A stretch of 64,000 bases of DNA from Streptomyces sclerotialus. Its GTDB lineage: Bacteria; Actinomycetota; Actinomycetes; Streptomycetales; Streptomycetaceae. The notes below the pieces were generated by a model, which saw nothing but the letters and a program-made list of their open reading frames with translations, was not told the origin of the DNA and ran no database searches. The stretch is from contig NZ_JBFOHP010000002.1 in assembly GCF_040907265.1 (NCBI RefSeq), forward strand, positions 62,001 to 126,000, in the 5' to 3' direction. Of this stretch, positions 210 through 63,210 are shown in pieces (positions within the stretch are counted from its first letter, which is position 1; each line of letters starts with the position of its first letter). The translations under genes and the position numbers were made by a program.

Positions 210-980
210 ATGTCCCACGATGAGTTCACCCGATTTCTCAAGAGCCTGCGCCAGGCCGCCGATGACGGATATGGCCTGTCCGCCGTCTCCGCCGTCTCCG
301 CCGCCCACCTGCTGCAGCTACAGGCCCTGACCCTGAACCTGCGCGCCCGGTCGGGCTCGCTGGAACTGCTGTGGGGCACCTTGGCCGACGGCGGTCTCGG
401 CTCCGCCCTGGAAGACCTGCAGTACACCCTCGGCGAGGGCCCCACCCTGGACGCCGCCCGTACCGGAGAGACCATCACCGAAACCGACCTGTCCACCCAG
501 GCCGCCGGCGAACGCTGGCCCGCCTTCACCTCCGCCGCATACGGCACATCGGCCCGCGCCGTCATCGCCGTCCCCCTGCGCCTGGGCGTGGCCACCGCCG
601 GCGTCCTGACCGGCTACCGCACCACCGCGGGCCTCTTTCCCTTGGGCCAGCGGCTCGACCTCGACATCTTCGCCCGCGCCGCCCTGGTCCTGCTGCTGAA
701 CACCCCGCCCCAGGCCGTAGCCGCCGACACTGACATCGACACTGACATCGACATCGACATCGACATCGACGCCGACACCGACACAGGACCGCGACCGAGT
801 CCGCCCCTGTACCACGCCAAAGTCCACCAGGCCACAGGTTTCCTCAGCAGCCGGCTCGGCATCCCGCTGGAAGACGCCCTGCTACGTCTGCGCGCCTACG
901 CCTTCAGCCACAACCGCCGCCTGGTTGACGTCGCCCGCGACGTCCTCGACGAGCGCCTCCACTTCACCCCTGACACCTGA
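210..980 (+). CDS. GAF and ANTAR domain regulator
   Basis: The protein has 256 residues. Residues about 25-165 resemble the degenerate GAF sensor of Streptomyces ANTAR proteins, including LGEGPTLDA and AVIAVPLRLG. Residues about 200-250 form the ANTAR RNA-binding helices (VHQATGFLSSRLGIPLEDAL, then RLVDVARDVL). The presumed role is signal-dependent transcription antitermination; the ligand is unknown. The linker at residues about 173-192 is a run of Asp alternating with Thr or Ile, encoded by hexamers of GACATC/GACACC (727-785). It looks like a recent slippage expansion inside a tolerant linker. It lies just downstream of another ANTAR gene end, in the same direction. The ATG at 210 is used; no strong Shine-Dalgarno is visible. 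Confidence 0.85.
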   Translation: MSHDEFTRFLKSLRQAADDGYGLSAVSAVSAAHLLQLQALTLNLRARSGSLELLWGTLADGGLGSALEDLQYTLGEGPTLDAARTGETITETDLSTQAAGERWPAFTSAAYGTSARAVIAVPLRLGVATAGVLTGYRTTAGLFPLGQRLDLDIFARAALVLLLNTPPQAVAADTDIDTDIDIDIDIDADTDTGPRPSPPLYHAKVHQATGFLSSRLGIPLEDALLRLRAYAFSHNRRLVDVARDVLDERLHFTPDT

Positions 981-1096
981 CACCTGACACCTGACACCAC
1001 CATCAGGCCATCGGGTCCCAGTCGGGGTCAGAACTGCACCGGCCCCGTGCGACCGTTCGGGTCCGCGTGCGACGGCCGGAGGCATGTGGGTGCCGG

Positions 1097-2680
1097 TCAG
1101 TGCGGGATGCGGCGGCCGAGGAACGCAGCTACCTGGTCAAGGGCCGGGGCCCGCTCGGGTGCGGGCTGTGCCGGAGCGATGGATCCGCCGGCGGTACGCG
1201 GCAGGTCGCCGTAGATCTCCCGTACGACTGGCAGGGCGGCGCGCGCGATGCCGGGCTCCAGGTCGCGGTCGCGGCCGAGCGCGGTCGCGAGGTCCCAGCC
1301 ATGCACGAGCAGCTCGACGAGGAGTTGCTCGACCACGCGGCGGCCGGGAGCAGGACCGAAGGTGCGGTCCAGCATGCCCGGTTGCCGGAACGCGTCGCGA
1401 GCCTTGGCGGCAGCGGTCTCGAAGGCGGCGATGTGGTTGTCGCCGAGGTGATCCTTGCCGTGGTCGCTGGTGGGGGGCGTGCCCTGTGCCAGGCCGCCCC
1501 AGATGATGTTCTCCCACACCAGATGGTCGACCAGGTCCCGTACGGTCCAGTCCTTGCAGGGGGTCGGCAGGCCGAACTGGTCCGGCGCCGTTGCGCGTAC
1601 GAGTGTGCCGACGGTGCCCTGGACGCGTGTGAAAGCGTCCAGGACACCGCCCGGCCAGGGGTCGGTGTCGTCCGTGTAGAGGGCTTCGAGCCGGGCGTTG
1701 CGTACGCCGGGCGCGGGGTTGGCGCGCAGCGCGGTGGCGAGCCACTGCCCTTCCGCGGCAATTCCGGCGGGTGCGGGACGGCCGCCGAGGACGCACAGCA
1801 GTTGCCAGAAGCGCTCGACGGCGGGCTCGGCCGCGGCGGTCAGCTGCTCACGCAGGAGTGTGCGGGCCTCGGTGCCGTCGCCGGTCACGGCCGGGTCGGA
1901 ATTCGCGCGGCTGGGCAGCCAGGCGGCGATGATGTCAGCGACGACCTGGTCGGCAGCCGGGGAGTCCGCCGCGGTGCCGGCCTGCATCGCCTCGCGGACG
2001 TGTGCGGTCCAGGTGTCGGTGAGTGCGCGCATTTCCGCCGCCGCGGCGGTGGAGTTCTGCACTCCCTGCCCATGGCGGGCGGCGTACTCCGCGATGCGCC
2101 GCATGGCGGGACGCAGGCCCCCCTCGGCGACCAGCTCGCTCAACTCCAGCCACGCCTCGACCTGCTCGTCGGTGGGGTCTTCCGGCAGGTCGCTGCCGGC
2201 CGCGAGGAGCCCCTCGCGGAAGTGGGCCACTTCCAGGTCGCCAAGCGTGTCGGTGAGGAAATCGTGGATCAGCTTGCGACGTTCGTCGGGCGACATGTGG
2301 GCGGTGCGGGTCATCAGAGCAAGTCCTTCATGGGTAGTGCGACGTGTGACGGTGCGCAGGACGGCCTGGTGGGTCCGCAGGCGGCGGATCTGCGCCTCCA
2401 GAGCCTCGACGTGTGCGGCCGCCACCTCTGTGAGCCCGTCCTCGCGATCCAGGGCGGCCCGGATTTCACCGAGCCCCATCCCCAGGTCCCGTAGCGTGCG
2501 GGCCAGTTGCAGCCGAGCTATGCCGACGGTGTCATAGCGGCGGTAGCCGCCGGCGGTCCGGCCGACCGGTGTCACGACGCCCACATCCGACCAGTGTCTG
2601 ACCACTTTCACGGGCAGTCCGGTCTGCCGCGCCACGGCTCCGATGCTCCACGTCGGCAGCGACGTGTCGTCCATGCACAT
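1097..2680 (-). CDS. MerR-family regulator fused to a mycothiol-isomerase-like (DinB fold) domain
   Basis: The protein has about 527 residues. The N-terminal MerR winged helix carries WSIGAVARQTGLPVKVVRHW and the wing GRTAGGYRRYD. A helical middle section follows. The last ~200 residues are a TIGR03086-type mycothiol-dependent isomerase-like domain with TPCKDWTVRDLVDHL and LLVHGWDLATALG, whose His residues are typical metal ligands of the DinB fold. The frame is open up to 2788, but the ATG at 2680 is preferred because a MerR-type promoter lies immediately upstream (2686-2718), so the longer start would be inside the operator. Fusion of regulator and enzyme-like domain suggests a ligand- or thiol-sensing role; this is inference. 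The gene is probably autoregulated. Confidence 0.85.
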   Translation of the reverse strand: MCMDDTSLPTWSIGAVARQTGLPVKVVRHWSDVGVVTPVGRTAGGYRRYDTVGIARLQLARTLRDLGMGLGEIRAALDREDGLTEVAAAHVEALEAQIRRLRTHQAVLRTVTRRTTHEGLALMTRTAHMSPDERRKLIHDFLTDTLGDLEVAHFREGLLAAGSDLPEDPTDEQVEAWLELSELVAEGGLRPAMRRIAEYAARHGQGVQNSTAAAAEMRALTDTWTAHVREAMQAGTAADSPAADQVVADIIAAWLPSRANSDPAVTGDGTEARTLLREQLTAAAEPAVERFWQLLCVLGGRPAPAGIAAEGQWLATALRANPAPGVRNARLEALYTDDTDPWPGGVLDAFTRVQGTVGTLVRATAPDQFGLPTPCKDWTVRDLVDHLVWENIIWGGLAQGTPPTSDHGKDHLGDNHIAAFETAAAKARDAFRQPGMLDRTFGPAPGRRVVEQLLVELLVHGWDLATALGRDRDLEPGIARAALPVVREIYGDLPRTAGGSIAPAQPAPERAPALDQVAAFLGRRIPH

Positions 2681-2718: not shown

Positions 2719-2740
2719 GCAGCCTGGTCGTCTCTCCCTC

Positions 2741-2999
2741 GCCGGCACCGCTCGTCGGCACTGCTCCCCCGACATCGCTCCCCGGCACCGTTCATCGGCA
2801 CCGCTCCCCCGACATCGCTCCCCGGCACCGCTCCCCCGGCACCGCTCGTCAGCGCCTTTCAGCGGCACCGTTCATCGCCGCCGCTCATCAGCAGCGTTCA
2901 TCGCCGTTGCTCATCGCACCACCCATCAGCAGCGTTCATCGCCGTCGCTCATCGGCACCGCCCATCAGCACCGTTCATCGCCGTCGCTCATCGGCTCCG
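2741..2999. repeat. Degenerate short tandem repeat tract
   Basis: About 260 bp are built from variants of a roughly 10-bp unit (CGGCACCGCTC, CGTTCATCGCC, CGCTCATCAGC). Copies are homogenised in blocks. It fills the space between the MerR promoter and the end of azlD. No conserved protein is encoded in any frame. Confidence 0.8.
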
Positions 3000-3021: not shown

Positions 3022-3390
3022 TCAGGGGACACCGAGCAGCCGCAGCACCGCCGCGCCCGTCGCGGCCCCCAGGACCACCACCAGGAACGGAGCCTTGCGC
3101 CAGGCCAGTACGCCGCCCACCAGTACACCGGCAGGCCTGGCGAACCCAGCCCACTCACGCGCCTCGAACAAAGCGGTGGTGACCACGAGAGCGGTGAGCA
3201 GCACCACGGCGACCCGCTCCATGAGCTTCTCCACCGCGGGGGAAAAGGTGACCTTGGAGCGCAGCAATGGTCCCGCGAGGCGGAAGGCGTACGTTCCGGC
3301 GGCCAGGGCGAGCATCGTGGCGACGAGCAGTGGGGTGTTGTTCAGCGGAGTGCTGTTCATCGAAGTGCCGTTCACCGGAGCGTTGTTCAT
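3022..3390 (-). CDS. azlD: AzlD-type small subunit of branched-chain amino acid exporter
   Basis: The protein has 122 residues and about four membrane segments, ending LGAATGAAVLRLLGVP. The conserved core GTYAFRLAGPLL near residue 33 is the AzlD signature. AzlC and AzlD together export branched-chain amino acids or analogues across the plasma membrane. The start overlaps the stop of azlC by ATGA (3387-3390), so translation is coupled. The first 20 residues are a coding tandem repeat (MNNAPVNGT, MNSTPLNNTP) with two in-frame Met codons, not seen in typical AzlD proteins. It is probably controlled by the divergent XRE-cupin gene. Confidence 0.85.
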   Translation of the reverse strand: MNNAPVNGTSMNSTPLNNTPLLVATMLALAAGTYAFRLAGPLLRSKVTFSPAVEKLMERVAVVLLTALVVTTALFEAREWAGFARPAGVLVGGVLAWRKAPFLVVVLGAATGAAVLRLLGVP

Positions 3391-4091
3391 CGGGTACCTT
3401 CCTTCTCCCGGGTTCGTTCGATCGCGAAGGCTGCCCCGAGGAGTGCCAGCAGCACCGGCAGCCCCACCGGCAGCAGCGGGGTCGTCGCCAGAGCGAGAGC
3501 GGAGCCGGCGAGGGCCGCGCTCCGGGTCTTTCGGTCACGGAGCGCGGGCAGGATCAGCGCCAGGATCACGGCCGGGAACATGGCGTCGAGTCCGAGCGCG
3601 TCGGTGTCGTCGAGGAGGGCACCGGCCATTCCGCCGAGGCAGGCCCCGACGGGCCAGCAGACCAGGATGCCGAGGCCGCACAGCCAGTACGCCGCGCGCT
3701 TGCGCGGCAGGTCCTGCTGGGCCAGGGCGAAGACCACGGTCTCGTCGTTCATCAGATGTGTGCCGATGTAGCGACGCCAGCCGGAGCCGATCACCTCGGG
3801 CACCGCCAGACCGAAGGGCAGGTGCCGCGCGTTGATCAGCAGCCCGGCGAACAACGCCGCGATGGGACTGCCCCCCGCCGCGACGATCCCGATGAACAGG
3901 AACTCGGAGGAGGCGGCGACGACGAGTACGCCAAGGAGCACCGGGACCCACAGCGGGAACCCCGAGGCGACAGCGATCGCGCCGTAGGAAAGGCCGATGA
4001 CGCCGACCGCCAGGCATACGAGAACGATGTCTCGCAGCGCTCCGCGCCCTAAAATTCGCCATACCGAACACATGGAGTGCATACTGAACAC
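3387..4091 (-). CDS. azlC: AzlC-type large subunit of branched-chain amino acid exporter
   Basis: The protein has 234 residues with several hydrophobic segments. It contains the AzlC signature region SSEFLFIGIVAAGGSPIAAL followed by LLINARHLPFGLA and the THLMNDETVVFA motif. It forms the exporter with AzlD, whose gene overlaps by 4 bp. Possible starts are GTG 4091, ATG 4082 and ATG 4073; homologues make the later ones plausible. The gene diverges from an XRE-cupin regulator across a short region containing a 16-bp palindrome, a usual arrangement for azl operons. Confidence 0.87.
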   Translation of the reverse strand: MFSMHSMCSVWRILGRGALRDIVLVCLAVGVIGLSYGAIAVASGFPLWVPVLLGVLVVAASSEFLFIGIVAAGGSPIAALFAGLLINARHLPFGLAVPEVIGSGWRRYIGTHLMNDETVVFALAQQDLPRKRAAYWLCGLGILVCWPVGACLGGMAGALLDDTDALGLDAMFPAVILALILPALRDRKTRSAALAGSALALATTPLLPVGLPVLLALLGAAFAIERTREKEGTR

Positions 4092-4120: not shown

Positions 4121-4795
4121 ATGCCGATGAAGCGAACAGCCACAGCCATGGAGAAGGCCTCGTCCGCCATGGAGAAGGCACCTTCAGCCGTGGAGGAGCC
4201 CATGGAGAAGGCCTCTTCAGCCATGGAGAAGGCTCCTTCCACCCCTTCCAAGCCCCCGCTGGAGGCCATCGCGACGTCCTTGCGCCGGGAACGCGACCGC
4301 GCCGGCCTGACCCTGAGCGAGGTAGCCCAACGGGCCAGGATCGCCAAATCCACGCTGTCCCATCTGGAGTCGGGAGCGGGAAACCCCAGCCTGGAGACGC
4401 TCTGGGCGCTCTGCGTCGCCCTGGACATCCCCTTCGCCCGGCTGATGGATCCGCCCCGGCCCCGCGTCCACGTGATCAGGGCCGGTGAGGGGCCTGCGGT
4501 CTCCTCCGCGCAGGCCGACTACCACGCCACTCTCCTCGGAGCCTGTCCACCCGGCGCGCGGCGCGACATCTACCGCGTCGCCGCCGAACCCGGTCACCAG
4601 CGCACGTCGGAACCACACATGCCGGGGGTCGTGGAGCACGTCGTCCTGAGCGCCGGCCGGGCCTTTGTGGGCCTCGCCGACGATCCGGTCGAGCTGCGTC
4701 CCGGCGACGCCGTCACGTACCCGGCAGACCTTCCCCATGTATTCCGCGCAGTGGAACCTGGCACATGGGCAGTACTGGTCTCCGAGCACGTGTGA
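4121..4795 (+). CDS. XRE-family regulator with C-terminal cupin domain
   Basis: After a repetitive N-terminus, an XRE helix-turn-helix is clear (LSEVAQRARIAKSTLSHLES, then NPSLETLWALCVALDIPFAR). A cupin sensor follows, with RPGDAVTYPADLPHVFRAVE near the end. Members of this class repress or activate adjacent exporters in response to small ligands; here the divergent azlCD operon is the obvious target. The start is uncertain. Several ATGs occur at 4121 and 4127 and inside a 21-bp coding repeat (4148-4243) whose units read MEKASSA or MEKAPSA, each beginning with ATG. A frame extending to GTG 4100 is unlikely because it would overlap the palindrome. Confidence 0.85.
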   Translation: MPMKRTATAMEKASSAMEKAPSAVEEPMEKASSAMEKAPSTPSKPPLEAIATSLRRERDRAGLTLSEVAQRARIAKSTLSHLESGAGNPSLETLWALCVALDIPFARLMDPPRPRVHVIRAGEGPAVSSAQADYHATLLGACPPGARRDIYRVAAEPGHQRTSEPHMPGVVEHVVLSAGRAFVGLADDPVELRPGDAVTYPADLPHVFRAVEPGTWAVLVSEHV

Positions 4796-5109
4796 CGTGG
4801 CGATTCGGCGCGGTCGCGCTCAATGCCCCATGCGCACACCGCCGACGGCGACGACGGAGACGACGGAGACGACGGCGTCCGCCGGTGATGTACGCGGCGC
4901 CGTCCCACGCAAGAAAGCACACCGCGGCCGCGCTCTCCGCGGCCGCGCCCGTCGACACCTGCGCCCGCATGCCGACACCGGCCGCCCTGACGTGCTCCGG
5001 GGACGCCGCCCCAACAGTCCCGACCCCGATCGCTGCCCGCGGTCCGCAGTCCCCGATCGCTGCCCGCGGTCCGCAGCCCGCGGTCCGTACCAGCGCGTCA
5101 GAGCGACAG
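4796..5109. other. Intergenic region with two tandem arrays
   Basis: No gene is supported here. It holds a 9-bp array (CGACGGAGA type, about 4842-4876) and a 27-bp unit present twice (5024-5050, 5051-5076, containing GATCGCTGCCCGCGGTCCGC). The region separates the XRE-cupin gene from a convergent small membrane protein gene. Confidence 0.6.
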
Positions 5110-5460: not shown

Positions 5461-5936
5461 AGATCAGCCCTCCCCGGCCGACTTACGGCGACGACTTCCT
5501 CTTCGTCGCCTCCTTCTTCCTCGTCCCACTCTTCAGTGTCATCTGCTGACCGCGCAGCGAAGAGCTCGCGGGCCTCTTCACGCCCGCAACACCACACCAG
5601 ATACCGGAAGGCCGCCGTTCCGGAGGGCTGCCCGACGCGTAGGTGCGGGTCTGATGCCGTGGCCGTGACGGCAGTGCCGTCGGCCGGACCTACGGTGAGC
5701 GAGCGCCTCCGTAGGTCTGCTTCTCCCAGGGGTCATGTGAAAGCGCTGGAAGGCGAGCGCACCGCCGCATCCTCGCCCCGATCATCGAGCGCGACCCGCG
5801 CAAGCACCCGCGCAAGTACCCTCGCAACCGACCGACCACGGCAACTGACCAACTACGGGGGCGACCGACCGACACGGAAACTGACCAACTACGGCGACTG
5901 GCCGACTACGGCGACTGACAAGGCAGCAGAGCACCC
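5461..5936. other. Intergenic region, repeat-rich
   Basis: No convincing gene is seen in 476 bp. The right part (5825-5918) consists of imperfect copies of CGACTGACCAACTACGG-like units running up to the start of the acetyltransferase gene. The left part encodes acidic and basic low-complexity frames only. Confidence 0.5.
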
Positions 5937-6488: not shown

Positions 6489-6577
6489 CGTCTTCGTCCG
6501 TCCGCCAGGGCGTGTCCCTCTAGCCGGAAGGAACTTTGACGACTTCGACGACATGGCCTAGCGCTGAGCTTTCAGCA

Positions 6578-6615
6578 GTTGGGCTTACAGGAGTTGGGCT
6601 TACAGGAACTGGGTC
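6578..6615. repeat. 15-bp direct repeat
   Basis: AGTTGGGCTTACAGG occurs twice in tandem (6578-6592, 6593-6607) and is followed by a partial third copy, in the intergenic region after the acetyltransferase. Confidence 0.8.
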
Positions 6616-7515: not shown

Positions 7516-7766
7516 CCTGGCGCGCGCCACCCGCGCCACCCGCGCCACCCGCGTCTTCCGGCTCACCACGCCCCCAGCAGTGCCGTTCTCTCGAAGTAAG
7601 GGCCTCAACACCTCACCTCGGCCCGCTCGGTACTCTCGGAAATCCAGCGAGGCTATGCCTCTCACGGTACTCGTGAACCGGGAAAATGAGAGGGCGTTCA
7701 CTTCACTGCCCTCGCCGGCAGAGGTCGGGCTGGAGACTTCGGCCGCAGCACCGACGAGCAGAGCGT

Positions 7767-11017: not shown

Positions 11018-11550
11018 GACGCCATCCCGGCACTCGATCTTGTGACTGCTCTTGTATTTGTGCCTGCTCTTGTACTTGTGCCTGCTCTTGTAACGGTCGT
11101 GAACGAAGCCGGACGGGCTGCCCTCGCGGAGCCCCGGCGGATTCGGTAGCCGGCCCGGTCGCGCTACTCAGGGATCGTATGCGGGATCTGTCGGCGGCGC
11201 AGGTAGGCCCGGATTGCACACCGGTCCCCCAGCGGTCGCCCCATCTTCGGCATCGGCGGCAACAGCGGCAACAGCGGCAACAGCGGCAACAGACGCTTCC
11301 ACTGGTCGCCAGCCCGTCAGGTTCCCGCAAGCCATACCAAGGTGAATCCATGGCCGCACCCGGCGGCTCCCCCATCCCCTTCCGTCCGGCCGCGCAAGCG
11401 GGGCGGGATCCCGGCGGAGAGGTTTTACCTGACGGTCGACCAGCAGTGCGCCACCGTGTCGTAACGTCACTGCATCCCTTGATCACGATCGCGGACGCCT
11501 CCGGCGGCTGATTCAGCCCTTCGCCGAGGCGGCCCGCCAGGAGGCATACC
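11018..11550. other. Intergenic region with 18-bp and 9-bp tandem arrays
   Basis: The region holds an 18-bp unit (TGTGCCTGCTCTTGTACT type) in three copies at 11041-11092 and a 9-bp unit GGCAACAGC in nearly four copies at 11258-11292. An open frame spans 11179-11511 but has low-complexity Arg/Gln content from the array and no family resemblance, so it is not called. The last 40 bp supply the ribosome binding site of the cupin gene. Confidence 0.6.
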
Positions 11551-11862: not shown

Positions 11863-12194
11863 CGCGAATCGCACTCGCTGGATCAACTCCACCGGTGACG
11901 GTCATGGTCGTCAAGGAAATGACACGCCCTGAGACTGAAGGTGTCCGTCACCGTCCGAGACAGGCGGAAGAACAGCAACTCACAACGCCGCCGTCTGGCA
12001 ATGGAGCCGTCTGACAAAGCCGTCTGACAATAGAGTCGAGAACCCGCGGAACTGAGCGGAGAGCTCATCGGGATGCTGCACCGTGTGCAGCATCCCGATG
12101 AGCTGGGACGGACCGCGGCAATACCCACCGCCTTGAGCGTGAACGAGACCATCACCGGACATGCGGTGGGTGGAGCACCTCTGTTAACGGCCCC
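11863..12194. other. Intergenic region containing a long hairpin
   Basis: About 330 bp between the cupin gene and a decayed lipoprotein copy. It contains a repeated GCCGTCTGACAA motif near 12005-12030 and a perfect 20-bp stem hairpin, described separately. No gene is supported. Confidence 0.5.
12062..12104. repeat. Perfect 20-bp inverted repeat (hairpin, 3-nt loop)
   Basis: AGCTCATCGGGATGCTGCAC (12062-12081) is followed by CGT and then its exact reverse complement (12085-12104). There is no T-run, so it is not a classical terminator, although GC-rich actinomycete terminators often lack one. It may also be a bidirectional attenuator or a foldback duplication. Confidence 0.85.
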
Positions 12195-12676: not shown

Positions 12677-13516
12677 GTGAGCACTGGCCAGGTCCGCACC
12701 ATGGTGAGCCTGATGGCTCAGGGAGCGCCGGTCGAGGTCACCAGCATGTGGGCGACCGCGAGCAAGTTGACGCGCTTGGCGCACCTCGGGGAGCAGTTCG
12801 GCTACCAATACGCGGACGCCCGGTATGTGAGCCGTGGCACCCAGCTCCTTATGGTGCCTGACCTGCAGCCGCAGGCACAGCAGCGCGCCCAGCAGACCTG
12901 GGCGCAGTTCCCGCAGGCCGCCAACGGTGGCCCGGTGCCGCCGCTGCCCGCGCAGGCCCCCGAACTCCTCAAAGCCCAGATCAACTTCGATCTCACGGGC
13001 CGGCACAACGAGAAGCGTCGGGTCCTCGCCGTCATCCCGATCACGGTGGTCGTGCTGCTCCGGCTGATGCGGGACGGCGCCGACGCGGCAGTGTTCTGGA
13101 TTCCGTTCTGGGTCCTGGCGATGTGTCTCGCCGTGGGCATGGTCTTCTACTCCCGTAAGCGGCACAGCGCGTACGAGGCCCAGTTGCAGCAGGCCGGTTA
13201 TGTGCAGGTCCCCGACCTGACGGGCCGAGTGCACTACGTCCCGGCGGGCAGCTCCCTCGCGGCCCAGGGACCCCCGGCCGGTGGGTACCAGCCCGGCCTC
13301 GGCCAGGTCCCGCCGCAGCAGCAGCCCTACGCCCAGCCGTCGTACCACCAGCAGGCGCAGGCCCCTCAGCAGCCGCAGCCCCCATACCAGCAGCCGCAAG
13401 CCCCTCAGCAGCCGCAGGCTCCGTACCAGCCCCAGCCGTACGGGCAGCAGCCTCCGCCGCAGCAGCCCTACGGTCAGCCGCAATGGTACGGGCAGCAGCC
13501 GCAGCCCCCGCAGTAG
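12677..13516 (+). CDS. Membrane protein with Pro/Gln-rich tail
   Basis: The protein has 279 residues. A soluble N-terminal part (residues 1-110, with ADARYVSRGTQLLMVPD) is followed by two membrane segments (VLAVIPITVVVLLRL and FWIPFWVLAMCLAVGMVFY) and a long C-terminal tail of repeated QPQAPQQPQ and PYGQQPPPQQPYGQ units. The start is GTG 12677 with AAAGGGGA upstream. Streptomyces encode many proteins of this layout with unknown function; the tail suggests a flexible interaction region. It lies between a decayed lipoprotein gene and an IS remnant. Confidence 0.8.
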   Translation: MSTGQVRTMVSLMAQGAPVEVTSMWATASKLTRLAHLGEQFGYQYADARYVSRGTQLLMVPDLQPQAQQRAQQTWAQFPQAANGGPVPPLPAQAPELLKAQINFDLTGRHNEKRRVLAVIPITVVVLLRLMRDGADAAVFWIPFWVLAMCLAVGMVFYSRKRHSAYEAQLQQAGYVQVPDLTGRVHYVPAGSSLAAQGPPAGGYQPGLGQVPPQQQPYAQPSYHQQAQAPQQPQPPYQQPQAPQQPQAPYQPQPYGQQPPPQQPYGQPQWYGQQPQPPQ

Positions 13517-13689
13517 TTCTGAGCGGGCGGCCGCCACCAGGTCAGTCGGTGGCGACCGCCCATCCGAACGGCCCGGTCGCGCGGGCGTCCGCCGGCGGGA
13601 CCTGTCGAAGGTGGCGCGTGGACCGTCGTCGACGCACAGGCCGTCCAGGCCGGGCAGGCCGTCCAGGCTCTCGCCGGCCATGCTGAATG

Positions 13690-17250: not shown

Positions 17251-17310
17251 CCGTGCAGTCCCACCTCTCGTGAGAGGCGACCGTGCAGTCCCACCTCTCG
17301 TGAGAGGCGA
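17251..17310. promoter_or_regulatory. Twin 30-bp direct repeat, each with a CCTCTC-GT-GAGAGG palindrome
   Basis: Two identical 30-bp units (17251-17280 and 17281-17310) each contain the perfect palindrome CCTCTCGTGAGAGG (17264-17277 and 17294-17307). They lie 37-80 bp upstream of the EEP gene start. Spacing of about three helical turns and internal symmetry make this a strong operator candidate, although the duplication could also be another of the local tandem repeats found across the window. Confidence 0.6.
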
Positions 17311-18193
17311 CGTAGCCATCGGCCGCACGAGGTCAGCCGGGCGGTTCCGGCTGACGGCATCGAGAATGCGGCCGGTCGGCAACGACCTTCTAGGGCAACG
17401 AGCTGTCCCGGACATCCGAGGGTCATCCTGCCTGGTCAGACCCCTGTCCCGGACACGTCTTCGCGCTGGCCCTGCCACCCCCGTCGGGTCAGTGGTGAGC
17501 TCGACGCCTATCTGCCGGCTCCGAGTTTGAGACCTGACGTCGCGAGTCGGGACGCGATGGGGTGCAGCTCCAGCTCTGGGAAGCCAGCCCGAAGTTAGGC
17601 CTGAGTTAGGCCTGAGTTAGGCCGAAGCCAGGCGGAAGCCAGGAGAGAAGCATGCGGCTCTTCGAGGTGCCAGCCCCACTGCGAAACGGTGTTGCCCGCG
17701 ATGTTGTCCGCTGCGAACCCGCCACGATCACCACGGTCGTGGACTCACCCGTGCCCGGCATCCGGCAGGTGTTTCAGCGCGCCCTGTGCCTCTGCACGTG
17801 GCGCTCGGCCGAGCCCCACCGCCGTACCCGGCGCGAGGCGTACCCCGCGGGGTTCCGTATGACGGCAAAGAACATCGCCGCGGCTGTGGAGGCGCCGCCG
17901 GTGCCCCCGCTCGCGGTGCGCCGAACGTCGCCGCGAGCCGGTCGGTTCTTCCGGACCGGAACCGCCTCCGGTGCCGAGGACGCGGTAGCCACGCGAGCCG
18001 CCCGCCGTCTCCCTGCGTCGTGGGTGCCTGTGCCGTTCGACGGGACCTCCCGAGGCCAGACGGTGAGTGGGCCATTCCGCGCGTGAGGTTCTCCCTGAGG
18101 AGAGGCCGGTTCGGGCGGCGCGCCGTGGCGGGCGGACTCCTACGTTGGCCGTGCGCGGGTTCCACTGCGAGGACGTGGCAGGGAGGGAAGGGC
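17311..18193. other. Long intergenic region, no supported gene
   Basis: This stretch of nearly 900 bp has open frames on both strands but none with family resemblance. One plus-strand frame (17652-18086) starts with a good AGGAGAG site but is Arg/Pro-rich and lacks recognisable motifs. An 11-bp unit (GAGTTAGGCCT) repeats at 17591-17625 with decaying copies up to 17646, just before that ATG. The region upstream of 18194 should hold the promoter of the amine oxidase operon. Confidence 0.45.
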
Positions 18194-20412: not shown

Positions 20413-20506
20413 CCCCCTGACCTGGGACGGCAGGACCGGCCGGCTCCTGCCGTCCCAGCTCGGGATGCAACCCCACACGAAGTTCTCCCTCCGAGCAGGG
20501 CAGCTT

Positions 20507-42247: not shown

Positions 42248-42376
42248 GCCGCCGCCCCCGAGTCCCCCATTGCCCCCGAGTCCCCCATTGGATCGTGTGT
42301 CGTGTCCGTCCTTGGTCGTTGAATCGTGACCTTGGTCATGGTAGAGGCGTGAGTGCGTTCATCGACAGGTTCAGGA

Positions 42377-43326: not shown

Positions 43327-43335
43327 GCGGCGACA

Positions 43336-44935: not shown

Positions 44936-45063
44936 CTCAAATTCGTACAGCCCCCACCCGTAGCCCTCGCCGCCGCGTTCCCGGATCGCCTTCAGCAGTC
45001 GCCGGAACCTCATCGCCCCGTAGCTCAGTGAACGTCTCCACCCGCACCCACACCCACACTCGC

Positions 45064-45101
45064 TCAACCCTCAACCCTCAGCCCTCAGCCCTCAGCCCTC
45101 A
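45064..45101. repeat. 7-bp tandem array
   Basis: TCAACCC occurs twice and TCAGCCC about three to four times in direct succession. The surrounding 44936-45189 has no supported gene; a short plus-strand frame (ALIAAFFDVLYMDGEQPGRA) is unassigned. Confidence 0.8.
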
Positions 45102-45189
45102 GCGCCTATACACAGGAAATGCCCTGATCGCGGCCTTCTTCGACGTGCTTTACATGGACGGTGAGCAGCCGGGCCGCGCGGCCGAGCAA

Positions 45190-46946: not shown

Positions 46947-47101
46947 ATGACCAAGGTAGTTGAATGTTCGTCGCCTGCCTGGCAGTTGAAGGAGATGACA
47001 CTGGAGAGCATGGCGGGCTTGGGGAGGCAGGCGGGCCTGGCGGGCCTGGATGGCTGCCTCCCCGAGTTCCGTGACCGGAGAGTCAGGTTGTGCCGGTGCG
47101 G

Positions 47102-47155
47102 CGGTCGCAGCGGTCGCGACGGTCGCGGCGGTCGCGGCGGTCGCGGCGGTCGTCG
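47102..47155. repeat. 9-bp tandem array, six copies
   Basis: CGGTCGCGG-type units run without interruption (first copies CGGTCGCAG and CGGTCGCGA, last CGGTCGTCG). The array lies upstream of the DUF6313-like gene. Confidence 0.9.
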
Positions 47156-48931: not shown

Positions 48932-49365
48932 ACCGGAACCCCTGCCGCGCGCCCCCGAAGGACATCGCGCCTTCGGGCCCACCGCTCCGTACGCGCGCCA
49001 CTCCAGCACATCGGGGCCATGATGCAGGCCGCGTACAACGAGGGCGTGGACGCACATGCCTCTCGTACGACAGGGTGGACGGACATGTCCTGTGTACGAG
49101 GGAGTACCCATGACGGTCGCGGTGTGCCAGCCGCCGGCCGTCGACCGGGGACGACGACCTCATTGAGTCACCACGCCTCCAGCACGCATGCCGTCGCCAC
49201 TGAGTTTCTCCGCGTTTCTTCGCCGGCAACGCGTTGTGCAGCTGGCCTTGCCCCGCCCACTCACTGTGCGGCGAGCCGACCGCTCTGGCCACGGGGAAGC
49301 GCCCAGTGCCGTCCACCGGGCAGCGCCCAGTGCCGTCCGCCGCGAGGAAATCCGAGCGCGATCCG
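48932..49365. other. Intergenic region, no gene recognised
   Basis: About 430 bp between the SDR gene and the convergent sigma factor gene. It includes a duplicated GCGCCCAGTGCCGTCC (near 49298-49340). No conserved protein is evident in any frame. Confidence 0.45.
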
Positions 49366-52922: not shown

Positions 52923-53717
52923 CCGGCGGCGTGGTCAAGGATTGTGCGGCGGGTCGTCCACGGAGCCACAGTCGGATCGCGGCGACAGTGACCGTTCCGT
53001 GAAAGACATACGCTCTCTTGCCGTACCGGGTCGGTACAGCTCAGACGCCCTTGAGTGCATGAATGGCCGACTCGACTTCTTCCCTGCGGGCATAACGTGC
53101 CCGCAGGGAACCAGCGGACGCCCGCCTCGGCTACCGCGCCGTCGGCGGTTGGCCCTTCCACTGCCGGCGCTGTCGCGGACATCAGCGCCAACGCGGCTAC
53201 ACGCCTCAGAGGCGTCCCGAAAGTGCGGCAGGTGCCCGTAGGTAACGGCACCTCATGTTTCTCTGGTGTAGCAGCGTTACGCCCATCGGGCGGAAGCCCA
53301 GTTTCACTGTTCCCCGGGCGAGGTGCCGACGGGTGCGGTTGACGGCTCACACAGGCCAAGCGGGCTTCGCCGTCGTCGTTCAGTTCGGGCACAGGGGCGG
53401 GGGCGGCTGGCCTCATCGGGGTTTCCTCGGGGCCATCGGTCATCGGGTGGGGCGAAGTCGTCGTCAGCGATGCGGACACGGGGCTATTCACCGCGGCCCT
53501 TGGACAGCGGCCAGCGGCAGTGGCCAGCGGCCAGCGGCCAGCGGCCAGCGGCCAGCGGCCAGCGGCCAGCGGCCAGCGGCAGACACTGTGCGTGCTCCCT
53601 GCACTCACAAGGGTGGCCTTCACATCATCCTTGCTCATGGCTCCCGGCACCTCCGGCTCATCACACCCGTCGAGATGGCCCTAGAGCCATCAGCTCCGGT
53701 CGACAACTCGTAAATGC
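52923..53717. other. Long intergenic region with a hairpin and a 7-bp array
   Basis: It contains a perfect 13-bp stem, TTCCCTGCGGGCA (53080-53092), with loop TAACG and its complement at 53098-53110. It also holds an uninterrupted 7-bp array GGCCAGC in eight copies (53522-53577), with degenerate flanking copies from 53506. Open frames across the region are low-complexity translations of the array and are not called. Confidence 0.7.
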
Positions 53718-54497: not shown

Positions 54498-54989
54498 GGC
54501 TGCCTCTCCATTCAGTCGCGAAGCCGGCGCGTCAGCCGGGAGATCCGGCTTCCTGTCCTCCTGGCCTACCGCAGCCGACGCATGGCGCGAACGGGCTGGC
54601 AGGCACCCAGCGAGATCGAACGGCAGCTGCACGAAGCGAAGCTGCGGGTCAACTCGGTTGGATACTTTGATGTGCTGGCGCGTACGTAACTGTACTGGGC
54701 TGTACTGGGCTGCACTGGGCTGTTCTGAGCTGAGTCGCGTTCATGACACGCCGACGGCCGCACTCCCCTGCCCTGCCCCGGCCTCCGATTCCCGACCCGG
54801 TAGCTGGTCTGTTCTGCCGGCCGCAGAGCGGCCGGCAGGACAGAATGATCGCGAGGTGGCACTGAGGGCGGCATCGATGCTGACTGCTTCCTCACCCACC
54901 GCGTGACCGGCCGGCTCGGCGAGCACTCGTGGAAGGTGGCCAGCACTCGTGGAAGGTGGCGGATCTCCTACTACGACGCCCCACGCCCG
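54498..54989. other. Intergenic region with gene remnant and repeats
   Basis: A plus-strand frame reads RRMARTGWQAPSEIERQLHE then AKLRVNSVGYFDVLART and ends at 54690. It looks like the start of a lost gene. It breaks exactly at a 10-bp array (TGTACTGGGC type, four copies, 54691-54730). A 20-bp unit (AGCACTCGTGGAAGGTGGCC) is doubled at 54922-54961. Confidence 0.5.
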
Positions 54990-56238: not shown

Positions 56239-56833
56239 GTGTTGCTGGGCTTGACGGCTTTCTGGGGAGGGGTGGAGCTGACGCGGGCCATCGACAACCA
56301 CGCCGTAGCGGCAGCGACTGACCTCTATGCCCTCGCCACCAACAACGAGCGCCTCGCGCCCCCGCGCCCCCGCGAGACGAACACGGGCTTGCAAAAGCCG
56401 AGCACGGACCTGCCGGGAGTGTCCAAGGTTCCCAGGGCTGCTGAGCGCCCGCGGGCCCCTCGAGCAACGGAGCCGGCGCTACCGGACTCGGGCCGATTGA
56501 AGGAGATCGCTACCGAGCTGCGGCCGCTCCTGGCACAGTTCGCTCGCGCCGGCACCACGACAACCTGGTCTCACATTCGGCGGCGCCTGCCTGGCCTGCC
56601 TCGTCTCCACCGTGATGACCAATGCATGGTCCTGGGACTGGTGGATGAGGACCGTCGGAAGATGAACCGCTGCTCTCGGCGCTAGTCACCGTCGGGGAAC
56701 GGCAGATGCATCCGCGCTTTCCCGTCATCGCCGAACAGCTCGCCCTGCCTATGGCGTCCCGCGCTTCCGACCAACGTATGACATGGACGTACGAAGTCCT
56801 CAACGTGCATCACCACTGGCGTCATCGGCGCTG
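56239..56833 (+). pseudogene. Mobile-element-associated hypothetical protein, frameshifted
   Basis: The frame from GTG 56239 reads through SGRLKEIATELRPLLAQFAR and IRRRLPGLPRLHRDDQCMVL and stops at 56685. The conserved continuation PSEDEPLLSALVTVGERQMH then PRFPVIAEQLALP and YEVLNVHHHWRHRR is in another frame, so a single shift near 56655 has broken the gene. Proteins with this DQPLLSAL-PRFP-IA-QLG ending are frequent on Streptomyces plasmids and integrative elements. It fits with the nearby integrase remnant. Confidence 0.6.
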
Positions 56834-56891
56834 AGAACCCGTATCTAGAGCTGAAGAACCCGCATCTAGAGCTGAGCCCCGCATCTAGAAC
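56832..56891. repeat. 20-bp tandem repeat, three copies
   Basis: GAGAACCCGTATCTAGAGCT-type units occur three times with small differences, starting immediately at the end of the preceding pseudogene. TCTAGA appears in each copy. Confidence 0.85.
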
Positions 56892-57482
56892 GGAAAGTAC
56901 TGTGGCAGCGGGCCACCTGCTCGGCATCACGGCACGTCGGTGGTACCGACGGCTCCACGGGGGCCGGTTGCGCGCCCAGGCACTTCAGATCGCCGACGCG
57001 GTGGAGGAGCTCCACGCCCCGCTCGCCCGCTTGCCCCCTCGCCCGATAGCCTGCTCGCCCGATTGCCCGCTTGGGCAGGAAGGGCCGCGCCCGCGCCGTT
57101 GGCGCGGGCATAGCGCGGCGCGGCGAGCGTGTTGCCTGGCAGGTGATGTACGTGGACTTCGCGCAGCCCTACCTCTTGTCCCCCTCCCTCCTCAGCCGCC
57201 GACGGCGTCGCGGGCATGGTGTCGGGCAGGGTGGCGGCGTGGGCCCGCTGGGGGCGAACTCACGCCAGCGTCCATATTGCAGGGGGGTCAGGATGCGGAT
57301 ACAGAACGGCTCGCGGACCTCGGGCCCACCGGGGGGGTGCGGGCGGTGGCGGACTGCGCCGCGAGCAGGATGTGCATGTGCATGCCGACCTGGCGGCCCA
57401 TGAAGAGTCCGCGGCGCGGCCCCGGGCCGAGCTTGTTCCCTGCCGTTCCCCGCCCCCTGAGAAACAGCCCCCAGCACGTCTT
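56892..57482. other. Intergenic region, no supported gene
   Basis: Nearly 600 bp downstream of the pseudogene. A long plus-strand frame is present, but its translation is Arg/Pro/Cys-rich and lacks family motifs. Imperfect CGCCCGCTTGCCC-type repeats occur near 57020-57075. Confidence 0.4.
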
Positions 57483-58065: not shown

Positions 58066-58210
58066 GCGAAACTCCTTCCCTCTTCGTGTAACGAAGGCTA
58101 CTCAGCCCGGCCCGGCGGCGCTCAGGCCTGGCTTCTGACTAAGGTCAATAAGCAACGAGGAGCACGAGGAACAGTACAAGCAGGGCTCTTCTGCTCGCGG
58201 TATACCGCAA

Positions 58211-58268
58211 TCGTCAGCCAGGAACCTTGCCGTCCGGAATCGTCAGCCAGGAACCTTGCCGTCCGGCC
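58211..58268. repeat. 29-bp direct duplication
   Basis: Two adjacent copies (58211-58239, 58240-58268) duplicate the last ~20 bp of a decayed minus-strand gene, including its stop codon. Confidence 0.85.
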
Positions 58269-58565: not shown

Positions 58566-59126
58566 TCGGCGGTCAGCGGTCAGCGGTCAGCGGTCAGCAC
58601 CGAACGTAGGGCTCTTCCATCGCATTTCGGCCGGAATACGCCGGTGGTGTCAGGCGAACTTCCCGTTGAGGAGCGGGTGCTCGCCCGGGACCTCGCACTC
58701 CACCACGTCGTAGACAGCGGGGGCGCGTCGCTGTTGGCAGCCCGCTTGAACTCGCCGGTTCTCTCATCGGAGCACCTCCAAGGCATTGGTTACCTGTTCC
58801 TGGTTCAGCGTGGGCTTCGCTCAACCGCTCGCGATCGGCGGCCGGGGCAACGCGGCATGAATGTTCACCAGAGGAGGCGCCACTGCATGAAGGCGCCTGC
58901 GGTTTGTGACAGCTTCTTCGGCGGACGTCCCCTCACCACCGGGACCGCCCGAATCCCGCAAGCCCCGCAAGCTCGGTAAGACCCGGAAGACCTGCAAGCC
59001 CCGCAAGCCCCACAGGTCGGACCTAGGCGGCCCTCGTCCCAGGCTCTGACCCGCCACGGACCCAGCGAAGAGTTCATTCGGCCCGTAAAGTCTCAACTCC
59101 GTTGTTCGACAACACTGGAGGAACAC
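58566..59126. other. Intergenic region with repeats and gene fragments
   Basis: GGTCAGC is repeated four times at 58571-58598. A minus-strand fragment reads VYDVVECEVPGEHPLLNGKF and stops near 58650, probably the end of another lost gene. CCCCGCAAG-type 9-mers repeat at 58955-59010, about 115 bp before the next start codon. Confidence 0.5.
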
Positions 59127-61318: not shown

Positions 61319-61691
61319 GCTGGAGCGTCAAGACTGCCATCGTCACGACACGCCACGTCACGACACGACACGTCAGCGGAGAAAGTGGCACACACGGAGC
61401 CTGAGAACCTACACCTACATCTACACCGTGCCGTCAGTCCTGTGCCCTGTCGACGAAGCAGGCAGTAGTGCCTTTGCGAGGCGATGGCGACGGCGACGGC
61501 GACGGCGACGGTAAGGGTGATGGTGGTAGTGGCAGTCGGGCCGTTGCGGTGCTTCTCGGCACGGAGGTCGACATCGCCGGCGCGCGGGGTTCCGACTATA
61601 GGCGTCTTCGCGGTGCGCGTGATGGTGGTACCGACCTGCACCAGCCTTCTCTTTCGGATCACTCTCACGGGCGTGCGATAGGTTGCCCGCC
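61319..61691. other. Intergenic region with 5-6 bp arrays
   Basis: ACGACACGTC-type repeats lie near 61345-61375 and GGCGAC is repeated four times at 61486-61511. Open frames here translate the arrays and are not called. Confidence 0.55.
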
Positions 61692-62240
61692 ATGACCGGA
61701 CTTTGGACTGCCGCTTGGCCGCCTGCCCCGATAAGGACCGAACGGCTCGTGCTCCGCGAGTCCGAGGCCCGAGACCGTGCGGCGTTCATCGAGCTGTTCG
61801 CATCACCAGAGGTGGGCACCTACATCGGTGGGGCTCGACCGCGTGCTGAGCTCGAGCGTGTGGTACCTGAGGTGCCCGGGCGGCGCCCTGGCCTTTTCGT
61901 GATCGATCTCGACGGAGCGATGATCGGCATGATTACGCTCGATCGGCGCGATGCGGGGCGTCCGGGTCATGTCCGTCCGGATGCCGGGGAGGTGGAGCTC
62001 GGTTACGTGTTCCTGCCGGAGGCGTGGGGATGTGGGTACGCCGCCGAGGCGTGCGCAGCGGCGCTCGGCTGGTTCGCAGACGCGCTCCCCAGCGAGCCGG
62101 TGGTGCTCTGCACTCAGACCGCCAACGACCGTGCGATGCGCCTCGCGGCAAAGCTGGGATTCACCGAGGTCCAGCGATTCGAGGAGTACGGCGCCGAGCA
62201 GTGGTTCGGCGTGTGGTCCTCGCTCGCGCCGTCCGGTTGA
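61692..62240 (+). CDS. GNAT-family N-acetyltransferase
   Basis: The protein has 182 residues. RTERLVLRESEARDRAAFIE starts the fold, FVIDLDGAMIGMITLDRRDA is the central strand pair, and LGYVFLPEAWGCGYAAEACA carries the acetyl-CoA loop (W-G-C-G-Y-A). TANDRAMRLAAKLGFTEVQR ends the domain. The RimJ-like subgroup acetylates N-termini or small amines. ATG 61692 fits the family start better than TTG 61683. It is a single gene. Confidence 0.9.
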   Translation: MTGLWTAAWPPAPIRTERLVLRESEARDRAAFIELFASPEVGTYIGGARPRAELERVVPEVPGRRPGLFVIDLDGAMIGMITLDRRDAGRPGHVRPDAGEVELGYVFLPEAWGCGYAAEACAAALGWFADALPSEPVVLCTQTANDRAMRLAAKLGFTEVQRFEEYGAEQWFGVWSSLAPSG

Positions 62241-63210
62241 GCAAGGTCGTTCTCTTCGGGGCGCGTGGCGGAGTAGCCCTGGTATTCCTCGGTAGTCCTT
62301 GGTATTCCTCGGTAGTTTCTTGGTTTCCTCTTCGGTTTCCGCTACATGCGACCTGCGAACGTCGCTGAAGGCCGACCAACTGCTGCTTGGCCGAAGGAGG
62401 GTCGGCTCGGAGCGCTGGGCCGTCAACCAGACAGCCAGTACACCTCCGTAGCTCTTCCCCGGTGAAGACCCCGCGCGTCCGATCCGGTCCAAAACCTCAG
62501 CATCTAGCTGAATCACGCGTGCAGCATCCTCCACGGATTCGAACAGCGACCAACAGTGTTTTCGGCTTGACGAGGCCCCGCCCTTCAACGCTCTGGCGTT
62601 ACCGGCCCGAGGCGCCGTCCGGTTCCTCAGGATGGCTGACTACAGCGTCATTCCGCGGGCGGACGCGGATCGCGGAGGCGTTCACCACCGAGGAAGTTCA
62701 CCCGATGGACTGCTACTTTGCGGCGGACAATCCGGGTGCGGGCCGCCTGGTTGTGTTCGAAGCCCGGCTCGTTACGGCCAACAACGGCACGGTGGGTGTG
62801 GCTGGTGCAGCAGCTGCAGCGCGCTAGCGAGCCTGGGCGCCGAGTGATGGGCTGCGTGACCGACTCGATGACGCCGGAAGTCCGACGATGTCAGCGATGT
62901 CTCCAGCGCCGTCGATTACATCAGCGGAACCCGGGCTACGAGATGAGCTCCGCGGCTACCAGCCGACGAGCGCTCGCTGGCCGCCACGGGGTGAATGTGC
63001 CGGTCGCGGGACTCAGTTAGTGGCTGTTCCGCGCGAGTCCGCGTCCGCGTCCGCTCCGCTCCGCTCCGCTGGGACTCTGGCGGTGGTACTGCTCGCGCAC
63101 TGTGTGCTTCATGTGTTCCCGGTCTTCCCCTGGGCTCAGCAACCCGTTTACGCTCGAACCGTTTCAGGGTCAAGTGATCTGCCTGCTCCCGGCACAGTGA
63201 GGCGGCTTCC
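62241..63210. other. Long intergenic region with repeats and unassigned frames
   Basis: A 20-bp unit (GGTATTCCTCGGTAGTCCTT) is doubled with a decayed third copy at 62281-62340. A minus-strand frame near 62430-62570 reads FESVEDAARVIQLDAEVLDR then SYGGVLAVWL, and a plus-strand frame near 62655-62824 reads FTTEEVHPMDCYFAADNPGA. Both look like gene pieces without recognisable family. CGCGTCCGCGTCC and CGCTC repeats lie at 63038-63073. Confidence 0.4.

Follow-up and report, generated by a model that had tools for sequence, protein, structure and literature searches.

The window, the whole stretch of 64,000 nucleotides that was analysed, lies at 62–126 kb, in the left arm of a Streptomyces chromosome that is linear and 8.26 Mb long. 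Tandem arrays were called with TRF and merged, and counts were made at scores of at least 50, 60, and 80. This gave 58, 45, and 20 arrays, respectively, compared to means of 0.9, 0.25, and 0 in 20 dinucleotide shuffles made in 500-bp blocks. Density at a score of at least 60 was 7.0 arrays per 10 kb. The initial annotation had described more than 40 tandem arrays throughout the window, which is confirmed, and all 11 of the example sites it named are tandem arrays of the kind it described. Most arrays were short (30–150 bp). Unit lengths, from the best TRF row, ran from 6 to 39 bp, in agreement with the lower end of the range first given (6 to 30 bp) and above its upper end. Gaps, defined as at least 150 bp between genes called by a crude self-made caller, contained an array in 24 of 30 cases. 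Six of the 58 arrays fell wholly within called genes and three at gene edges, consistent with the arrays reported in several coding linkers.

The arrays are given below by window position (no strand assigned), with unit length and copy number from TRF; those with a relative's gap noted (G279, G153) also rest on alignment. Borg-type denotes a perfect array of at least 50 nt and at least three units.

279..303, 9 bp x2.8, coding
724..784, 6/18 bp, GACATC-type, within an ANTAR-domain ORF; G279 has a 54-bp gap here
969..998, 7 bp x4.3, gene edge
2738..2999, 13/39 bp, nested periods
3335..3393, 15 bp x3.9, gene edge
4143..4195, 21 bp x2.5, coding
4200..4239, 21 bp x1.9, coding
4843..4875, 9 bp x3.7
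5024..5087, 27 bp x2.0
5794..5919, 17 bp x5.5
6568..6613, 15 bp x2.7
7523..7553, 9 bp x3.4
11039..11092, 18 bp x3.0
11248..11292, 9 bp x5.0
11990..12031, 13 bp x2.9
13347..13430, 39 bp x2.2, coding, Pro/Gln-rich tail (repetitive too, but different, in the S. niger homologue)
13433..13501, 15 bp x4.4, coding
13637..13668, 9 bp x3.6
17251..17311, 30 bp x2.0, perfect
17580..17638, 11 bp, ~5 copies
20505..20600, 25 bp x4.0
20952..20984, 17 bp x1.9
23533..23578, 14 bp x3.3
23663..23690, 8 bp x3.5
24964..24994, 16 bp x1.9
25214..25253, 17 bp x2.4
28065..28103, 18 bp x2.2
30127..30275, two adjoining 19-bp arrays
31692..31743, 24 bp x2.1
32270..32358, two adjoining 18-bp arrays
33574..33627, 18 bp x3.0
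33693..33724, 6 bp x5.3
33764..33799, 8/16 bp
34197..34228, 12 bp x2.7
34626..34663, 8 bp x4.8
35012..35069, 30 bp x1.9
35661..35727, 13/28 bp
35809..35851, 13 bp x3.3
36092..36124, 12 bp x2.8
38964..39037, 19 bp x3.9, in part Borg-type
42254..42290, 18 bp x2.1
42377..42411, 8 bp x4.4
42472..42580, 8 bp x13.6, variant-unit runs, in part Borg-type
43305..43344, 13 bp x3.1, gene edge
45063..45103, 7 bp x5.9
47094..47152, 9 bp x6.7
49289..49342, 24 bp x2.2
53505..53580, 7 bp x11.0, in part Borg-type
54690..54732, 10 bp x4.3
54918..54960, 20 bp x2.2
56830..56889, 21 bp x3.0
57016..57071, 8/16 bp
58205..58266, 29 bp x2.1
58569..58598, 7 bp x4.3
58955..59011, 9 bp x6.3
61336..61375, 15 bp x2.6; ~20 bp without counterpart in the aligned G153 gap
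61407..61427, ACCTAC x3.5, weak (score of 35, under the cutoff of 50); G153 has a 10-bp gap here
61476..61511, GCGACG x6.2, almost wholly in a 36-bp G153 gap
62273..62330, 10/20 bp

Array density along the chromosome and across Streptomyces

At a score of at least 60, left-arm pieces of 40 other Streptomyces averaged 0.85 arrays per 10 kb (maximum 4.5), and none of the 40 reached the density of the window; the core of the same chromosome had ~1.9. Only 24 of 260 gaps in those 40 pieces carried an array. With GC considered, the 20 pieces with GC below 0.70 totalled 20 arrays over 400 kb, or 0.5 per 10 kb, so that equal density in ordinary Streptomyces was not found, in line with the unusual density claimed initially. 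The excess also held over 80 named loci. In 23 of these an array lay no more than 500 bp from one gene, so the local-copying process is also active, though sparsely, in other members of the group. Dense zones of the chromosome were patchy (40–166 kb and 260–340 kb, weaker at the right end), and hot zones were found on both arms. Perfect arrays with a period of at least 10 numbered 0.69 per noncoding kb in the window and 0.99 in the other hot arm, compared to 0.065 in the 40 left-arm pieces, 0.165 in another 24 arm pieces, and 0.21 in the strain's own core. Being perfect, these arrays are taken to be young.

Arrays could be born at an ordinary rate and retained differently, with duplications piling up in hot stretches of old, unconstrained noncoding DNA and the other arms turned over by gene transfer too soon for this. 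We regard this as possible but less likely than not. It is consistent with the coding DNA of the window, which showed no excess over the strain's core (0.164 vs. 0.162 arrays per coding kb), and with a block at ~172–206 kb that has only short or weak matches in four close genomes and few arrays: two in L072 (score at least 50) and five in L071, none of them beyond its shared first 6.2 kb. However, the perfect, hence young, arrays lie 4- to 15-fold above arm pieces of other species. The noncoding-rich arm pieces L229, L226, and L242 (12.9, 11.8, and 9.2 of 20 kb) held 1, 0, and 1 noncoding arrays, respectively, at a score of at least 60. Unshared bins of the window were array-rich as well, and the contrast between clade-shared and unshared bins was slight overall (1.30 vs. 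0.98 arrays per noncoding kb).

A genome-wide repair or polymerase defect, such as a missing NucS, would produce duplications everywhere, and array density is the one observation in its favor. A check for missing NucS had been suggested in the initial annotation, and its absence is excluded: the genome contains a NucS match (E 2.6e-41), unlike a mismatch-repair-deficient mutator, and all 40 of the 40 relatives have NucS too. The genome carries two Ku genes, which some other Streptomyces also do. The strain's core was no denser in arrays than eight core pieces from other Streptomyces (0.56 vs. 0.95 per noncoding kb). In the part of a mutation-accumulation report used here, moreover, the authors state that NucS loss did not considerably affect the indel rate (9 vs. 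19 indels; PMC11109965). With NucS present and core density ordinary, a genome-wide defect is decidedly unlikely.

Units, births, and assembly of the arrays

Units of different loci had been described as unrelated, and comparison of 51 mainly noncoding window arrays supported this, with a shared 11-mer in 2 of 1275 pairs compared to an average of 6.5 pairs among random window segments of equal length. The same count rules out a dispersed repeat family (MITE, satellite family, or CRISPR). In the arms of this strain, the period was divisible by three in 56 of 58 coding arrays vs. 75 of 157 noncoding arrays. Selection on the arrays as functional elements (operators, terminators, RNA or chromosome-packing sites) would suit their location in intergenic gaps, and in the part of the Borg report used here regulatory RNA roles are suggested for intergenic arrays (PMC9879509). 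Such a role is nonetheless improbable, given that the arrays had no common motif and no extra hairpin energy over their flanks (p = 0.17, 136 arrays), that all four gap types carried them (1.4–2.6 per kb), and that a 12-mer was in common with S. niger in only 5 of 2336 unit pairs (a count with no control set).

Orthologous sites in relatives carried one unit or no array, which, with the locus-specific units, supports the earlier proposal that local sequence is copied. An 18-bp duplication at L069:10791–10828 was single copy in both G518 and G102, and among the sites compared this was the only one with two agreeing relatives. In the window, three arrays at 61336–61511 corresponded to insertions relative to G153 and the array at 724–784 fell in a gap of G279, comparisons made with no outgroup, in which loss in the relative is possible. 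Copy number differed among orthologous loci (one unit in two relatives vs. two here, and arrays lying in gaps of one relative), a trait of minisatellite or VNTR loci. Among the strain's own insertions of at least 8 bp, four of seven in aligned hot-arm sequence were tandem copies vs. 3 of 33 in other stretches of the strain, although numbers were small and 26 of the 33 came from one core locus. In clean two-copy arrays, the number of extra matching bases (e) was at least 3 in 13 of 38 (~9% expected for blunt duplication) and 0–1 in 22 of 38 (78% expected). Scars at arm rearrangement junctions are a highly improbable source: several homology-block ends lay at or beside arrays in L069 and S. niger, but an array lay within 40 bp of 9 of 38 block ends vs. 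30% of control positions near gene ends.

The terminal repeat spans 12.6 kb. Its arrays were identical in both copies; the sole differences between the copies were one- or two-base indels at four sites, in G/C runs. Given these near-identical copies and array lengths of mostly 30–150 bp, collapse of arrays in assembly appears unlikely. One weak hit in coding sequence, located outside the window (L069:2322–2362), was rejected as a duplication, since comparison with relatives indicated ancestral sequence similarity, and other weak coding hits may be likewise. While that hit fits an origin in chance, base composition, or assembly artefact, the probability of such an origin is close to negligible in view of the shuffles, the low-GC arm pieces, the confinement of terminal-repeat differences to G/C runs, and the like density in an S. 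niger contig, from a genome that was deposited separately.

Close species and the proposed origin

This S. niger contig, with 16 arrays in 23.7 kb, was equally dense; its genes were homologous but its units different. Another piece from S. niger held 1.3 arrays per 10 kb. Judged by gene B of L069, our strain is closer to S. violens and S. ochraceiscleroticus than to S. niger, and G279 is about as close as S. niger by genes A and B. Homologous loci in these three, in the pieces that were readable, were array-poor (1 array in 12.8 kb, none in 8.7 kb, and 2 in 8.6 kb), so relaxed constraint alone is an insufficient explanation. Since the hot S. niger contig has other units, a stretch may stay hot for longer than its single arrays last. 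A lineage-specific, arm-restricted repair or replication activity acting on certain subtelomeric stretches might turn local sequence into arrays as densely as in Borgs, the hot state being inherited across species (here and in S. niger) while every array is replaced; we consider this conceivable but doubtful.

We favor independent, locally born minisatellites, arising by local tandem duplication, growing by slippage, and retained in unconstrained arm DNA (probability roughly 0.7). As seen at single sites, an existing stretch of ~6–30 bp is duplicated head to tail. The duplication may proceed via strand slippage or error-prone break repair, sometimes with at least three bases of microhomology and otherwise with homology no greater than chance. 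The two-copy seed would then lengthen by slippage and decay by point mutation, as variant-unit runs and multi-copy arrays suggest. Noncoding DNA in certain arm stretches would be free of constraint, and arms would meet more breaks and mismatches; seeds would pile up in those stretches to Borg-like density, while coding DNA and core gaps would purge them. In the portions of the reports used here, break scars in S. ambofaciens had 1–6 nt of microhomology in 50% and nearby 42- or 83-bp inserts in two clones (Hoff et al. 2018, PMC5869714), and the nine indels in its wild-type mutation-accumulation lines were all 1–4 bp (PMC11109965), so duplications of 6–30 bp must be rare per generation.

Tandem repeats seldom arise from unique sequence, which makes their birth difficult to study. 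To our knowledge, Borgs are not available in pure culture. If this strain and the S. niger strain truly make arrays at Borg-like density in defined stretches, a genetically tractable genus would allow tests of seeds and their growth, and of what slippage, Ku/LigD, and NucS-made breaks contribute. In some Streptomyces arms, intergenic DNA would then evolve largely via local duplication, affecting promoter spacing, annotation, and strain typing. An arm-restricted activity, if true, would offer a counterpart to the birth of Borg repeats in a bacterium that can be cultured.

Comparison with known systems

Borg-type arrays numbered 3 in 64 kb of the window (47 per Mb) and 7 in 140 kb of the other hot arm (50 per Mb), both small counts, with none in the strain's core and 1.2 per Mb in the 40 other arms. 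Borgs average 55 per Mb by the same criterion (Schoelmerich et al. 2023, PMC9879509), a similar density. As described in the part of that report used here, Borgs are also linear replicons with terminal inverted repeats, and they likewise carry many arrays with unique local units and independent origins, in gaps and in frame within genes, together with additional partial repeats. They are archaeal and extrachromosomal, whereas the arrays here lie in patchy zones of a GC-rich bacterial chromosome, with genes on both strands rather than almost all on one strand per replichore. Most arrays here are imperfect, while the Borg set holds perfect arrays only. Borg arrays are A-enriched. Here GC alone was compared, and arrays did not differ from flanks (0.678 vs. 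0.674, p = 0.58, 126 of 136 arrays).

The S. ambofaciens break scars, from the part of that report used here, resemble our arrays in microhomology of 1–6 nt, fill-in, and insertion of 42 or 83 bp of nearby sequence, but come from induced breaks; the word "tandem" is absent from the main text (PMC5869714). Fast-evolving Streptomyces subtelomeres, in a report whose main text lacks the words "tandem" and "intergenic" (PMC8627663), are the same compartment, with known gain, loss, and rearrangement. Minisatellites and VNTR loci, as covered in part of a prokaryotic satellite and minisatellite survey (units of 10–200 bp, at least four copies; PMC6749651), share tandem units and a partly intergenic location. 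That set, made by another criterion, is sparse (38 loci or 4.20 per Mb in S. coelicolor), whereas in this strain stretches of a single arm are crowded with dozens of arrays unrelated to one another.

Array content and distribution along the chromosome

The linear chromosome carrying the window in its left arm (positions 62001–126000) measures 8,261,949 bp and has 12.6-kb terminal inverted repeats. Merged Tandem Repeats Finder (TRF) arrays in the window numbered 58 at a score of at least 50, 45 at a score of at least 60, and 20 at a score of at least 80, compared to means of 0.9, 0.25, and 0 in 20 dinucleotide-preserving shuffles of the window. All of the example arrays quoted in the initial annotation (11/11) proved real. 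It described arrays in nearly every intergenic gap; arrays occupied 24 of the 30 window gaps of at least 150 bp, using a custom gene caller with codon log-odds trained on stretches of the same genome. The units were also unrelated between loci, as claimed: an 11-mer was common to 2/1275 pairs of noncoding arrays (random segments, mean 6.5). Arrays were not different from the sequences compared with them in hairpin formation. Purine asymmetry was 0.103 in arrays vs. 0.057, a difference left out of the argument because a repeated unit by construction has larger composition variance. In searches of plasmid collections, no entry matched over the greater part of the query.

Along the left arm, arrays scoring at least 60 numbered 2–2.5 per 10 kb at 1–40 kb, 5–10.5 at 40–166 kb, 0.5–2.5 at 166–260 kb (except 200–220 kb, with 5.0), 5.5–8.5 at 260–340 kb, 2.0 at 340–360 kb, and 1.0 at 400–420 kb. 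The last 100 kb of the right end held 3.5–5.5, and the core about 1.9 (mean of 16 pieces between 0.6 and 7.6 Mb). Given these dense arm stretches and the sparser core, the zone is regional and not genome-wide. Arrays scoring at least 50 per noncoding kb, a measure that is approximate because the gene caller missed Pfam-supported genes (e.g., an MDMPI-domain ORF at 14558–15460 and the Imm21 gene listed below), reached 1.53 in the window, 1.92 in seven other array-dense (hot) arm stretches, 0.91 in the remaining arm stretches, and 0.56 in the core. Whole-sequence densities are independent of the gene caller.

33903–34538: predicted Imm21-family immunity protein

A block at about 172–206 kb of the chromosome (locus L071 from 6.2 kb, and L072) was array-poor and is perhaps a recently gained island; its matches to four close genomes were all either short or weak. 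The two terminal inverted repeats (L006 and L080) differ at four places only. Each difference is an indel of one or two bases within a G/C run, and together they look less like biology than like basecalling errors in long reads.

Other features were observed in the window. A 1.9-kb segment (36964–38888) with a luciferase-like monooxygenase gene (37076–38026) breaks homology to loci L027 and L226, in which the two flanks of the segment directly adjoin each other. On the left, the flank is an ORF resembling a DDE transposase. A 1060-aa protein (39065–42247), with arrays on either side of its gene, contains a TIR_2 domain (residues 180–304) and, towards the C terminus, WD40-like repeats; it might act in defence or signalling. 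A 250-bp segment occurs in two window copies (12279–12527 and 35117–35369; 82% identity), with 81–82% matches in S. niger and the related genome G279.

Comparison with other Streptomyces

The density, for which the initial annotation knew no standard description, is not ordinary for Streptomyces among the samples taken. At a score of at least 60, the window's first three 20-kb pieces had 7.5, 7.0, and 7.0 arrays per 10 kb, compared to a mean of 0.85 and a maximum of 4.5 in left-arm pieces (80–100 kb) of 40 other Streptomyces, which were 20-kb pieces chosen by position and may not be true chromosome ends. The 20 of these 40 pieces with GC <0.70 totaled 20 arrays in 400 kb. Arrays were found in 24/260 gaps of the 40 pieces. 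On the same approximate noncoding scale, arrays scoring at least 50 numbered 0.17 per kb in the 40 pieces, and 0.45 and 0.95 in 24 further arm pieces and eight core pieces, respectively, of eight Streptomyces. We also considered 80 loci surrounding homologues of the window methyltransferase (53718–54497), mostly from Streptomyces with some other actinomycetes, which held 0.26 arrays scoring at least 60 per noncoding kb. None of the 80 reached 7 such arrays per 10 kb, the highest being S. niger with 6.3. An array (score at least 50) lay within 500 bp of the methyltransferase homologue in 23/80 loci (10 upstream, 14 downstream), with differing units. Together with the low densities elsewhere, this indicates that the process is general and the density here is not. 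In published figures, S. morookaense has 943 TRF repeats that span 174,279 bp and make up 1.70% of its genome (PMC7393960), which converts to about 0.9 per 10 kb, one order below the window; a prokaryotic satellite survey using another criterion gives 4.20 per Mb for S. coelicolor (PMC6749651). No description of arms with such array density was found in the open-access literature searched.

Contig 36 of S. niger (L187 and L307) held 16 arrays scoring at least 60 (6.7 per 10 kb; 23.7 kb examined of 43.8 kb) and carries homologues of the window methyltransferase and of genes of L069, a locus of the S. sclerotialus genome outside the window. This contig, one of many, is presumed to be arm DNA. 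A 12-mer was common to 5/2336 pairs of S. sclerotialus hot-arm and S. niger arrays, a count with no control set. Densities were 1.3 arrays per 10 kb in a second S. niger piece and 0.5–1.3 in mixed pieces from S. violens, S. ochraceiscleroticus, and G279. L069 genes A and B matched at 85–92% in S. niger, S. violens, S. ochraceiscleroticus, and G279, where found. Species of this kind probably make up the former Chainia group.

Birth and growth of arrays

Relatives with a single copy or no array provide direct evidence of local birth. An 18-bp two-copy array (L069:10791–10828) is present as one copy in S. ochraceiscleroticus (G518, locus L143) and in G102, two close genomes with homology to this stretch. 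The gap after the window gene of the dienelactone hydrolase family aligns with G153 on both flanks, and the arrays at 61336–61375, 61407–61427, and 61476–61511 correspond to sequence missing from G153 (about 20, 10, and 36 bp, respectively). The only other bases absent from G153 ahead of the right-hand homology are 4 bp and 1 bp. Three further relatives showed no alignment there. The GACATC array (724–784), in a poorly conserved stretch inside an ORF, corresponds to a 54-bp gap in G279. At the G153 and G279 sites loss in the relative is possible, as there is no outgroup. No window array could be aligned to a relative under strict spanning conditions, in a search that also missed a known self match. 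In gapped alignments, 4/7 S. sclerotialus insertions of at least 8 bp were tandem copies in hot stretches and 3/33 elsewhere, and relatives' insertions were tandem copies in 5/24 and 1/49, respectively; these counts are small and unpolarised, and 26 of the 33 come from one core locus. At L069:2824–5846 and 7012–9542, array-rich sequence of 2.5–3 kb, which also carries additional genes, lies between genes that are at most about 90 bp apart in G279 or G518.

Hot stretches could reflect either a higher birth rate or just better retention. Retention is favoured by the 172–206 kb block, which is array-poor and matched only weakly by close genomes, but little contrast was seen between clade-shared and unshared bins (41 arrays per 31.6 noncoding kb vs. 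20 per 20.5). A higher birth rate is favoured by young perfect arrays, which were 4- to 15-fold enriched relative to other species' arm pieces. Residence time as the sole cause suits the block, but is weak overall and was rejected.

Copying was examined through e, the matching bases beyond two units, in exact two-copy arrays with clean flanks; this filter removed the 47/85 S. sclerotialus and 48/101 relatives' two-copy arrays that had unit-like flanks. Blunt duplication of random local sequence should give e of 0–1 in 78% and of at least 3 in about 9%. Observed values were 0–1 in 22/38 and at least 3 in 13/38 S. sclerotialus arrays, and 23/53 and 26/53, respectively, in relatives. Values of at least 7 (6/38 and 12/53) are probably in part remnants of longer arrays; without them, e was at least 3 in 7/32 and 14/41. 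The excess at e of at least 3 in both sets rejects pure blunt end joining and the many arrays at 0–1 reject pure microhomology; one share therefore arose via microhomology and another without need of it. Growth of a two-copy array to many copies is most simply explained by slippage, and the runs of variant units in the 42472–42580 array fit it. In the arms, the period was divisible by three in 56/58 arrays inside genes and 75/157 noncoding arrays. This would follow if arrays arise regardless of reading frame and those causing frameshifts are lost to selection. Part of the pattern may come from codon periodicity, as a weak coding hit turned out in one case to be ancestral.

Missing NucS, which the initial annotation proposed to look for, was rejected: the gene is present, and a study of S. 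ambofaciens judged that losing it has no considerable effect on indels (PMC11109965). Ku copy number was also rejected on the basis of Ku counts, with two matches here and 1 to 8 in seven other Streptomyces. The Streptomyces genome G083 has eight Ku matches, some partial, and the other seven in the sample, S. sclerotialus included, have one or two each. Arrays as junction scars were striking in L069 and S. niger, but in a systematic count an array lay within 40 bp of 9/38 homology-block ends vs. 30% of control positions, and this cause was rejected.

Resemblance to known systems

The mixed births with and without microhomology resemble break scars of S. ambofaciens, in which 1–6 nt microhomology occurs in 50% and nucleotide addition or fill-in in 40%, with 42- or 83-bp inserts from nearby in two clones (PMC5869714). 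The polymerase error and breaks inferred to increase towards S. ambofaciens chromosome ends (PMC11109965) fit an arm effect.

Of the parallels found, tandem repeats in Borgs come closest. These archaeal elements carry a mean of 46 repeats per 0.83 Mb, equal to 55 per Mb, with values from about 32 to 92 (PMC9879509). By the Borg criterion (perfect arrays of at least 50 nt and at least three units), the window held 3 in 64 kb (47 per Mb) and the hot stretches elsewhere held 7 in 140 kb (50 per Mb), a likeness that is approximate because counts are small. The other arm sequence held 3 in 320 kb and the core 0 in 320 kb; in the comparison sets there was 1 in the 800 kb of the 40 left-arm pieces, 1 in the 480 kb of the 24 further arm pieces, 1 in the 160 kb of the eight core pieces, and 7 in the 982 kb of the 80 loci. 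Most arrays here are imperfect and the host replicon is a bacterial chromosome, so this is no Borg. The dense arm stretches may work like one.
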